DNA of 64,000 bases from Olsenella uli DSM 7084. GTDB taxonomy: Bacteria > Actinomycetota > Coriobacteriia > Coriobacteriales > Atopobiaceae. The notes beneath the pieces are model-generated. The model made no database searches and was not told the origin of the DNA. It saw only the letters and a program-made list of their open reading frames with translations. This document shows, piece after piece, positions 39,225-44,923 of this stretch. The position numbers and the translations under genes were made by a program. The DNA lies in NCBI RefSeq assembly GCF_000143845.1, contig NC_014363.1:543186-607185 (forward strand), given 5' to 3'. The first letter of the stretch is position 1; each line of letters opens with the position of its first letter.

Positions 39225-40514
39225 GTGAGGGTGAGGCTTGGGAAGCAGGCGCGCAGCGTCTCCATCGTGGGTGTGGGCTGCACACCGTTCAAGAACTTCG
39301 AGGACCATCCCGAGACCAAGGGCATGAGCGAGGGCGACGCCTTCGGTTACGCCGCGCTCGAGGCCGTCAGGGATGCCGGCCTTCAGCCGCGCGACGTCCA
39401 GTACTTCTACCACGGTGCCGCCAACCCCTTCATGATCGGCGACTCCCTGACCCCCAACATGCAGGTTGCCGACTGGTTCGGCGTCCGTGGCATCGGCTCG
39501 GTCCACCATTCCGAGGCCTGCTGCACCGGCTATGTCGCCCTGCAGGAGGCCGTCCAGGCCGTTGCCTCCGGCAGCTATGACGTCGTCCTCTCCGGTGCCG
39601 TCGACCTGGCCGCATCGCTTCCCGTCGTGGGTGCGCCCGGCTGCTATCGTCGCGACTTCCCGCTCGAGGAGATGCTCCCCTCGATTCCGATGGTCTACGA
39701 CCGCGCCTATGGCCGTCCTTTGGACTCCGCCTTCGGCATCTCGTTCGACAACTGGATCAACAAGTACCGCTGGGAGTTCGACCTCACGGACGACCAGGTC
39801 GACCAGGCCCTCAACGGCATGTCCAAGAGCCTGCGCCGCGACGCCGTCCTAAACCCGCTCGCCTTCTACACCTCCGACTTCGATGATGCCGCCGAGGCCA
39901 ACGGCCTTGAGGGCGCGGACGCGTTCTTGTCCTCCATGTTCAACCCCAAGGTCACCCAGTACCTGCGCGTCACCGGTTTCGAGACCAAGTGTGACGGTGC
40001 TGCGGCGGTCGTCGTCATGCCGACCGAGATGGCCGTCGCCCGCGGTCTCGACCACAAGGTCATCGACGTCTTGGGCACCGGTGCCGCCGCCTTCGAGGGT
40101 GCCACTCCCGACAACGAGTACAACGGCACCAAGGCCGGTGCCCAGCAGGTGTACGAGTATACCGGCGTCAGGCCCGACGAGCTGGACCTCCTGTTCGTAA
40201 ACGACTTCTTCCTGGCCGGTGACATCGTCGCCGCCGAGGAGGTCGGCTACATCCCTCGCGGCGAGGCCTGGCGCTATGCCATTGACGGCCGTTGCGGCTT
40301 CGACGGAGACAAGCCCATCAACACCCACGGGGGCCGCTGCAACTTCGGTCACGCCCACGGCGCCTCGGGCGTCGCCGACATCTGCGAGGCCGTCAGGCAG
40401 ATGCGCGGCGAGGCCGGCCCCACCCAGATGCCAACGGTGCCGAGGACCACGTTCCTGCGCGGCTTTGGCGGCGGCCAGAACATCCGCTGCCAGATCCTGC
40501 GCACCCACGAGTAG
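39225..40514 (+). CDS. Thiolase-superfamily protein (PhlC/SCP2-thiolase-like)
   Basis: A 429-residue thiolase-fold enzyme, first gene of a six-gene operon. The GTG start follows AAGGAGTGATCGATC. The expected nucleophile is Cys99 in HHSEACCTGYVAL (counterpart of CASG), and the base is in INTHGGRCNFGHAHGASG. The C-terminal active-site cysteine of biosynthetic thiolases (CxGGGQ) is missing: the segment reads LRGFGGGQNIR. This layout is closer to PhlC and archaeal thiolases that pair with DUF35 proteins, and to Ltp2-type aldolases, than to FadA. With the DUF35 protein encoded next it should form a complex that makes or breaks a C-C bond next to a carbonyl. The substrate is unknown. Confidence 0.88.
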   Translation: MRVRLGKQARSVSIVGVGCTPFKNFEDHPETKGMSEGDAFGYAALEAVRDAGLQPRDVQYFYHGAANPFMIGDSLTPNMQVADWFGVRGIGSVHHSEACCTGYVALQEAVQAVASGSYDVVLSGAVDLAASLPVVGAPGCYRRDFPLEEMLPSIPMVYDRAYGRPLDSAFGISFDNWINKYRWEFDLTDDQVDQALNGMSKSLRRDAVLNPLAFYTSDFDDAAEANGLEGADAFLSSMFNPKVTQYLRVTGFETKCDGAAAVVVMPTEMAVARGLDHKVIDVLGTGAAAFEGATPDNEYNGTKAGAQQVYEYTGVRPDELDLLFVNDFFLAGDIVAAEEVGYIPRGEAWRYAIDGRCGFDGDKPINTHGGRCNFGHAHGASGVADICEAVRQMRGEAGPTQMPTVPRTTFLRGFGGGQNIRCQILRTHE

Positions 40515-40552
40515 CGCACGTCACCCAGACTTCCACGAGGAGGAACCGAACA

Positions 40553-41023
40553 ATGCTTCTTGAAGACATGGAGCCGATCGCTAAGAAGTTCTACGACGGC
40601 GTCGCCGAGGGCAAGTACCTCGGCCGCAAGTGCGTCGAGTGCGGTGCCATCGAGTTCCCGCCCCATCTGGGCTGCAACGCCTGCGGCTGTGCCGACACCG
40701 AGTGGGTGGAGCTCAGCGGCAGGGGGACCCTCGAGTCCTTCACCGTCCCGGGCATCCAGAACGACAAGCCCTACCTCAAGTCCGTGGAGCCCTATGGCTA
40801 CGGCAAGGTCAGGCTGGACGAGGGTCCCGAATACACCTTCGTCATCTTCTGTGGCAAGAAGAGGGTCGTGAGGGGCCTGCAGGAGCGCCTCTACAAGGGC
40901 CACGAGGAGATCCGCGTCCACGCCATGCCGATCAAGCGCGTCACCCCGCTGAAGCCCGGCTCCGACGAGACCATCGAGTGGTACGAGCTCTGCTTCCAGC
41001 TCGATGAAGCCGGCGAGGCCTAG
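40553..41023 (+). CDS. DUF35 (Zn-ribbon/OB-fold) partner protein
   Basis: This 156-residue protein has a rubredoxin-like zinc ribbon (KCVECGAIEFPPHLGCNACG; C27, C30, C41, C44) followed by an OB-fold (GTLESFTVPGIQNDKPYLKS). This is the family that bridges thiolase-like and HMG-CoA-synthase-like enzymes in archaea, serves as PhlB in phloroglucinol acyltransferase and as ChsH2-type partner of aldolases. GAGGAGGAACCGAACA precedes the ATG. Its position directly after the thiolase gene strongly supports complex formation, in which the OB-fold may bind CoA or a carrier arm. Confidence 0.92.
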   Translation: MLLEDMEPIAKKFYDGVAEGKYLGRKCVECGAIEFPPHLGCNACGCADTEWVELSGRGTLESFTVPGIQNDKPYLKSVEPYGYGKVRLDEGPEYTFVIFCGKKRVVRGLQERLYKGHEEIRVHAMPIKRVTPLKPGSDETIEWYELCFQLDEAGEA

Positions 41024-43662: not shown

Positions 43663-43729
43663 CGCCATACGATCAGGCCCCAGCGTGCCGACTTCGTCAG
43701 CTGCGAGAGACAGAGAGAGTGACATCCAA

Positions 43730-44923
43730 ATGACCAGTGAACAGAAGAGGTACATCGTCGGCATCTATGCCGCTGCCATGTGCATCATGGGCATGCTCGT
43801 GCCCGTGCCCATCCTTGCCAACATCGCCCGGTCGTTCCCGGACGCCAACATAGCGACGGTCCAGATGTGCATCGGCATCATCCCGCTGTGCATGGCCCTG
43901 TCCGCCATGTTCCTCTCGTCCGTGCTCGCCTCGCGCGTCCTGAAGCGCCATACCGCGCTTGCCTGCCACATCCTGATCATGGTGGCGGGGCTCTCGGTCG
44001 TGGCCTTCCACGACTCCCTCGCGCAGGTCCTCTGCGCCTCCGTCTTCGTCGGCATTGGCATCGGGGGCATACAGAACGGCACCGACGCACTCATCGCCGA
44101 CTACTTCGAGGGCGAGCAGCGCGGTTCCATCATGGGCGTCTACTCCACCTTCGTCGCCCTGGGTGGCATCCTTTGGACCGCGCTCTCCGGCATCCTCGGT
44201 CATGACCAGTGGTGTATGGCCTATGCCGCCTATGCGGCCGAGCTCCCCTTCATCATCGTGGAGTTCGTCTGCCTGCCCAAGGGCCACCTCGAGCCCAAGC
44301 CAAAGGGTGGCAACGTCCTGAAGTCGATGCCACGCGAGGTCGCACTCATCACGTTCATTAGCTTCGTCTTCGTGCTGTGCTTCCAGCTCTTCTCGACCAA
44401 CGTCTCGCTCATCGTCGCCGACCGCGGCTTTGGCGGCACGGCCGAGTCCGCCACGGCCTCCACGGTCATGACGGTCGCGGGCATCTTTGCCGGCCTGCTG
44501 GTCGGTCCGCTCTTCAGGCGCTTCAAGAACCGTTCCATGCCCCTCGCATGGTGTGTGACCATCGTCGGCCTGCTTGCGGCGCTCCTCGCCCCTTCGCTTG
44601 CCGCCCTCTGCGCCGCCGGCTTCGTGATCTCGCTTGGCAAGGAGACCTACGTGCCCCTGCAGGGCAACTTCGCCGCAGGGAACAGCAGCAACGAGGGGCG
44701 TGCCTTCAACCTGGCCATCGGCATGGCCGGAACCAACTTCGGCATGGCCCTCTCGCCGCTCTTCTTCGAGGTGGCGACGGCCCCCTTCGGCGCGCAGATT
44801 CCCCAGAAGTTCGTCCTGGGCATCGTCATCATCGCCGTCCTGGTGGCGTTTGGCGTCGTGCACTACAAGAGCCTGACGCCCGCTCAGCTGGCCGAGGAGA
44901 AGGCTCACTCCGCCGCAAAGTAG
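43730..44923 (+). CDS. MFS transporter
   Basis: A 397-residue integral membrane protein with about 12 predicted helices, last gene of the operon. It starts MTSEQKRYIVGIYAAAMCIM. A motif-A-like loop and conserved Gly/Pro positions (GIGIGGIQNGTDALIADYFE, in the loop after helix 4 region) fit the major facilitator superfamily. The distal half has LISLGKE-like and NFAAGNSSNEGRAFNLAIGM segments. It likely brings in the operon's substrate or exports the acid formed. The direction and ligand are inferred from context only. A strong terminator follows. Confidence 0.9.
   Translation: MTSEQKRYIVGIYAAAMCIMGMLVPVPILANIARSFPDANIATVQMCIGIIPLCMALSAMFLSSVLASRVLKRHTALACHILIMVAGLSVVAFHDSLAQVLCASVFVGIGIGGIQNGTDALIADYFEGEQRGSIMGVYSTFVALGGILWTALSGILGHDQWCMAYAAYAAELPFIIVEFVCLPKGHLEPKPKGGNVLKSMPREVALITFISFVFVLCFQLFSTNVSLIVADRGFGGTAESATASTVMTVAGIFAGLLVGPLFRRFKNRSMPLAWCVTIVGLLAALLAPSLAALCAAGFVISLGKETYVPLQGNFAAGNSSNEGRAFNLAIGMAGTNFGMALSPLFFEVATAPFGAQIPQKFVLGIVIIAVLVAFGVVHYKSLTPAQLAEEKAHSAAK

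Follow-up and report, generated by a model that had tools for sequence, protein, structure and literature searches.

What might six co-directional genes that combine a thiolase, a DUF35 protein, an acyl carrier protein (ACP), a phosphotransacylase, an acyl kinase and a transporter do for Olsenella uli DSM 7084? These genes lie at 39225-44923 (+) of the 64,000-nucleotide window that we analyzed (contig NC_014363.1, positions 543,186 to 607,185), within the complete 2,051,896 bp genome of the type strain (PMC3035265). An initial annotation had proposed that they conserve energy by C-C cleavage, with the acyl group passing onto CoA or the ACP and then, as acyl phosphate, yielding ATP. That outline fits our results, and the choice of carrier can be narrowed to the ACP: we lean, if only slightly, towards reading the operon as a module that cleaves a C-C bond and forms ATP by way of a dedicated ACP. 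Thioester-based substrate-level phosphorylation is textbook CoA chemistry, and every protein family encoded here is already known; what we propose as new is their combination, with a carrier protein replacing CoA in energy-conserving cleavage.

The six-gene operon is real. Open reading frame calls and Pfam/NCBIfam searches confirmed the families named in the initial annotation, in the order thiolase, DUF35, ACP, PTA_PTB, butyrate-kinase family and MFS, with intergenic gaps of 38, 134, 136, 2, and 67 nt and purine-rich, ribosome-binding-like sequences ahead of the gene starts. No terminator-like site was found in the 134- and 136-nt gaps, the sole internal match lying inside buk. Because the thiolase-DUF35-ACP-Ptb-Buk order is kept in most of the Coriobacteriia loci that we fetched, the grouping is not due to chance; co-transcription is predicted. 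The strong terminator that was thought to close the operon stood only in part: the hairpin is indeed strong (Table 1), but the T-tract that follows it, CTCCTTTGTG, is poor, and the four terminator-like matches in the region are no excess over the 3.6 found in shuffled sequences.

The first two products place the operon in the superfamily of DUF35-partnered thiolases, as a Cys/His thiolase fold stands next to a DUF35 protein with a Cys4 zinc ribbon and an OB fold. The O. uli thiolase has Cys99 as nucleophile, Asn326-Asp327, and His376; Cys99, Asp327, and His376 are invariant in all 103 family members, and the four zinc-ribbon cysteines are invariant in the 16 aligned DUF35 members. Its profile matches in the PDB include 7yvy (1e-61) and 6esq (6e-50), and among solved structures it is closest to thiolases of the DUF35-partnered or SCP2 type; the homologue from locus L137, which is not the O. 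uli protein, has fold matches to 7yvy, 6et9, and 7pyt. Thiolase-DUF35 fusions occur in three loci, and in a structure model of the natural fusion from L137 the packing is confident (pTM 0.91). A model of another homologue, from L110, comprises a DUF35 protein with two tethered ACP domains; neither model revealed where the ACP docks on the thiolase.

The evidence favors the dedicated ACP over CoA as the acyl carrier. The thiolase gene has an ACP gene within 6 kb in 94 of 106 loci, and in all 94 of the encoded ACPs the attachment serine is invariant, while the aspartate that directly precedes it in the DSL motif is present in none (0/94). The O. uli protein has a PP-binding domain with the phosphopantetheine serine, but its GSM motif and its score of 19.9 bits against TIGR00517 (cut-off 70.45) set it apart from the housekeeping fatty-acid ACP; AcpP and DltC are encoded elsewhere in the genome, and both carry the usual DS motif. 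In addition, DUF35 is joined to one or two ACP domains in Eubacterium ramulus-type and Erysipelotrichaceae loci. AcpS- or Sfp-type phosphopantetheinyl transferases (PPTases) were found near 29 of 117 loci (31 before two weak ones were set aside), against about 1.2 expected at an assumed density of two per 3 Mb genome. It is this proximity, the invariant serine lacking the DSL aspartate, the fusions, and the nearby transferases that make the ACP central. An acyl-ACP thioesterase is present in six loci, all within the E. ramulus-type clade.

The phosphotransacylase scores below the curated cut-offs for both pta (235.9 of 311.2 bits) and phosphate butyryltransferase (P_butyryltrans, 68.4 of 410.5 bits). 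By the numbering of the Methanosarcina thermophila Pta, Ser309 and Arg310 are kept in all 75 module phosphotransacylases, while Arg87 and Arg133 are absent from all 75; the housekeeping Pta of O. uli has all four residues. In the M. thermophila enzyme, changes at Arg87 and Arg133 mainly alter Km and those at Ser309 and Arg310 alter kcat (PMC6461089). The loss of the two arginines is only suggestive, however, because their equivalents are non-essential for catalysis in the Pta of Porphyromonas gingivalis (PMC6461089). The kinase exceeds the cut-off for butyrate kinase, and its acyl specificity is predicted from this family membership; in two distant loci, an acetate/propionate-type kinase replaces Buk.

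In the mechanism that we propose, a beta-dicarbonyl substrate would be imported, or formed with the help of associated flavin reductases, with a flavoprotein preparing it by reduction. The thiolase would cleave this substrate next to a carbonyl in a retro-Claisen reaction, whereby Cys99 is acylated and the remainder leaves. In favor of this step, PhlC of the same superfamily forms an acyl-Cys by CoA-free cleavage of the aryl ketone acetylphloroglucinol (PMC6392133). The DUF35 protein, which in solved relatives contributes to a CoA site between the subunits, would present the phosphopantetheine arm of the ACP as acceptor of the acyl group. The phosphotransacylase would then convert acyl-ACP and phosphate to acyl phosphate, from which the butyrate-kinase-family enzyme would form ATP and the free acid. 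We infer each of these reaction steps, as well as the catabolic direction, the acyl group, and the substrate.

The direction is where the main rival arises, which we regard as unlikely. The kinase and phosphotransacylase might instead consume ATP in charging the ACP with a free acid, the thiolase/DUF35 pair joining the acyl group to a carbon acceptor by a PhlABC-like Claisen reaction or C-acylation and the MFS protein exporting the product. All of the steps are reversible, and free-standing ACP and PPTase genes are typical of biosynthesis too. Moreover, the relatives PhlABC (Pseudomonas protegens) and MucABC, which like the operon have a Cys/His thiolase-fold subunit and a DUF35 subunit, are acyltransferases that perform CoA-independent C-C acyl transfer through an acyl-Cys (PMC6392133). 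These systems differ from the module in several respects: no PhlA-type third subunit (FabH/HMGCS-like) was found in the O. uli operon or among the recurrent neighbors examined; the operon has an ACP, a phosphotransacylase, and a kinase, and identity in the fold match is about 20%. Against the rival, the neighbors include no recurrent tailoring, ketoreductase, or amide-forming set; in Bacillota they are glycoside- and sugar-degrading enzymes and reductases, and several of the regulators and transporters are of a substrate-use kind. We favor the catabolic direction because of the kinase, these Bacillota neighbors, and a second ACP-Ptb-Buk cassette in O. uli that is linked to a hydrolase, as described below.

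Less probable still is a CoA-based version of the module, where CoA receives the acyl group from thiolase/DUF35 and the phosphotransacylase and kinase work on acyl-CoA, leaving the ACP with a side role. CoA esters are indeed the substrates of solved DUF35-partnered thiolases (archaeal, BbsAB, and Ltp2 types), and the Ptb and Buk families consist of CoA and acyl-phosphate enzymes. The archaeal thiolase/HMGCS complex is a close structural relative of the thiolase and DUF35 proteins, but it uses CoA, includes an HMGCS subunit, and is biosynthetic (mevalonate). BbsAB (benzoylsuccinyl-CoA thiolase), Ltp2-ChsH2, and the Sal-Shy aldolases also pair a thiolase fold with DUF35 for C-C cleavage, although on CoA esters; the O. 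uli proteins reach 90.7 of 750 bits for BbsB and 25.2 of 250 bits for BbsA, and the likeness to the Ltp2-ChsH2 and Sal-Shy retro-aldolases is at the fold level only. Pta-AckA and Ptb-Buk likewise lead from a thioester through acyl phosphate to ATP, but they start from acyl-CoA, whereas the operon has a non-DSL ACP and a phosphotransacylase without Arg87/Arg133. The conservation of this ACP, its lack of the DSL aspartate, the DUF35-ACP fusions, the nearby transferases, and the loss of the arginines all argue against CoA.

The domain names alone (thiolase, PTA_PTB, butyrate kinase) might suggest a conventional acetoacetyl-CoA thiolase with a Ptb-Buk branch that forms butyrate, or a role in fatty-acid oxidation. 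This is very improbable, and we rejected it: the proteins fall far under the curated cut-offs for both acetyl-CoA acetyltransferase and phosphate butyryltransferase, the genome encodes a housekeeping Pta and AckA separately, and neither the operon nor the recurrent neighbor clusters examined (a few small ones judged only by eye) include a CoA ligase, crotonase, 3-hydroxyacyl-CoA dehydrogenase, or acyl-CoA dehydrogenase. The initial annotation had set the operon apart from standard beta-oxidation; among the neighbors examined, orthologous sets elsewhere are accompanied by neither beta-oxidation nor a known biosynthetic set. A phloroglucinol pathway of the Clostridium scatologenes type, which combines anaerobic 1,3-dicarbonyl cleavage with ATP formation via acetate/butyrate kinase, was also rejected, since its published route uses TAL (a beta-keto acid cleavage enzyme) and CoA enzymes and no ACP is mentioned (PMC10470551). 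The open-licence papers searched, some of them on C-glycosides, contain no description of such a module.

Several points weigh against an ATP-forming module that depends on its ACP. All of the enzymes are reversible in principle; 12 of 106 loci have no ACP nearby, and about one third have no Ptb or Buk nearby, although some contigs end early. To these may be added the dispensable arginines of the P. gingivalis enzyme, the assumed transferase density, and the shared ancestry behind the co-occurrence counts given below.

The search for the conserved gene set in other Coriobacteriia, which had been suggested as a check, was successful. With a cut at about E 1e-180, a strong thiolase match was found in 45 of 140 Atopobiaceae genomes, and with a looser cut in 53 of 398 genomes of a class-wide Coriobacteriia sample. 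Most fetched Coriobacteriia loci have thiolase, DUF35, ACP, phosphotransacylase, and kinase in order, usually adjoined by a PucR-type regulator and an FMN_red-family flavoprotein and often by a TetR regulator; a few loci have the phosphotransacylase and kinase several kilobases off, or neither was seen. Scanning a single genome for each species gave at least 278 relatives, and the 80 that were fetched belong chiefly to Lachnospiraceae, Oscillospiraceae, and Erysipelotrichaceae, with Streptococcus ovis, S. orisasini, S. moroccensis, and E. ramulus also among them. The first five genes (thiolase to Buk) are a recurring unit, found in Coriobacteriia and many Bacillota alike. In a FastTree phylogeny, the main Coriobacteriia copies form one clade separate from the Bacillota clades, with several deep branches unsure. 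A plasmid search gave two distant matches and nothing else.

This spread into Bacillota goes beyond the initial annotation, as do a second ACP-Ptb-Buk locus and a VprA-like redox partner. The second O. uli set, at approximately 1,133,244-1,147,574 of the genome (L146 5245-19575), encodes a CocE/NonD (S15) hydrolase, an MFS protein, an ACP, a phosphotransacylase, a small protein, and a butyrate-kinase-type kinase; its ACP is also non-DSL (motif CKSVNI), and the S15 hydrolase takes the place of thiolase/DUF35. The cassette is divergent from genes for an FMN reductase, an FAD flavoprotein, and NuoG/NuoF-like proteins. The best matches of the flavoprotein are the vinylphenol reductase VprA, whose cut-off it misses by a wide margin (299 of 600 bits), and fumarate reductases of the flavocytochrome c type. 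The thiolase operon of several relatives has an S15-ACP pair or a second Ptb-Buk pair next to it. Of the 140 Atopobiaceae genomes, 45 are thiolase-positive and 95 thiolase-negative; the VprA-like flavoprotein occurs in 44 and 6 of these, respectively, and the S15 protein in 37 and 6, counts that are not corrected for shared ancestry. Both the second set and the co-occurrence of the flavoprotein speak for the ACP-based reading of the operon.

We tentatively suggest, as a possibility that falls somewhat short of our preferred reading of the operon, a general, widespread way for anaerobes to conserve energy with ACPs. Thiolase/DUF35 and the S15 hydrolase would be interchangeable sources of acyl groups for dedicated non-DSL ACPs, from which ACP-specific phosphotransacylases and kinases would make ATP without CoA, and the two O. 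uli cassettes might act in turn on one compound, reductively prepared and perhaps of plant origin, to cleave it in successive steps. If true, fermentative energy metabolism would gain a new branch, based on a dedicated carrier protein and found in hundreds of gut anaerobes, oral Olsenella, and some streptococci, and the module would save energy that simple hydrolases lose. Uncharacterized gut loci, some of them beside C-glycoside deglycosidases and flavin reductases, would then be candidates for the breakdown of dietary or host beta-dicarbonyl compounds.

Table 1. Features of the operon and its conserved neighbors, in positions of the window.
Feature	Position	Strand	Length	Supporting match or remark
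FMN_red-family flavoprotein, conserved neighbor	35356..36462	+		Pfam FMN_red for orthologue L038; 44 loci
PucR/CdaR-type regulator, conserved neighbor	36538..38229	-		HTH_30 1e-18; 40 loci
TetR-type regulator, conserved neighbor	38339..38971	+		TetR_C_8 1.1e-8; 22 loci
Thiolase, SCP2/archaeal DUF35-partnered type	39225..40514	+	429 aa	Pfam Thiolase_C_1 2.9e-26
DUF35 protein, Cys4 zinc ribbon + OB fold, thiolase partner	40553..41023	+	156 aa	OB_ChsH2_C 6.9e-9
Dedicated ACP	41158..41397	+	79 aa	PP-binding (PF00550) 1.7e-8; attachment motif LGKGSMKM (GSM, not DSL)
Phosphotransacylase, PTA_PTB family	41534..42541	+	335 aa	PF01515 5e-81
Butyrate-kinase-family acyl kinase	42544..43662	+	372 aa	TIGR02707 370.8 bits, cut-off 289.1
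MFS transporter	43730..44923	+	397 aa	MFS_1 2.8e-28; probable substrate uptake or product export
Terminator-like hairpin, poor T-tract	44985..45011	+		11-bp stem, fold z -2.9

The MFS gene is the least conserved member of the operon, and only a subset of the relatives have it 3' of buk. Where some Coriobacteriia carry a copy at the locus, identity is 61-84%, but it drops to 24-33% outside the class, and the transporter was set aside as uninformative about the substrate. Orthologues of the FMN_red-family flavoprotein beside the operon in relatives are 62-79% identical; the Cys motifs of this protein are likely Fe-S motifs, and its true start is probably internal, at the ATG of MSFKVMAVC.

Some loci depart from the common arrangement. 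Elsewhere in the class, L050 (166-6908) has two thiolase-DUF35 pairs, one phosphotransacylase, one ACP, and an acetate/propionate-type kinase. In two metagenome-assembled genomes of different genera (L039 8985-10220 and L040 5330-6545), a frameshifting deletion in the thiolase gene removes the NDFF motif; both junctions read GCCCCGCGGCGAG, and assembly artefacts or parallel loss are possible. At L026 (3348-4938), a butyrate-kinase fragment lies within an FAD_binding_2 gene, possibly through misassembly.

In L096, L113, L119, L090, and their relatives, the thiolase, DUF35, and ACP genes stand beside an Fe-ADH, a 2-hydroxyacid dehydrogenase, a BaiCD-like OYE, a class II aldolase, and an FGGY kinase, and a sugar-derived beta-dicarbonyl route is possible there. 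Homologues of the C-glycoside deglycosidase DgpB/DgpC are present at several of these sugar-type loci (CGDB E 2.5e-40, DgpC 1e-109). As a clue to the O. uli operon, this link was set aside as only a lead, since the O. uli clade lacks DgpBC and no significance figure attaches to the association. The E. ramulus-type module (L058 5350-8864; similar in L060 and L062-L064) is adjoined by a ferredoxin, a fumarate-reductase-like flavoprotein, and a group A6 [FeFe] hydrogenase.

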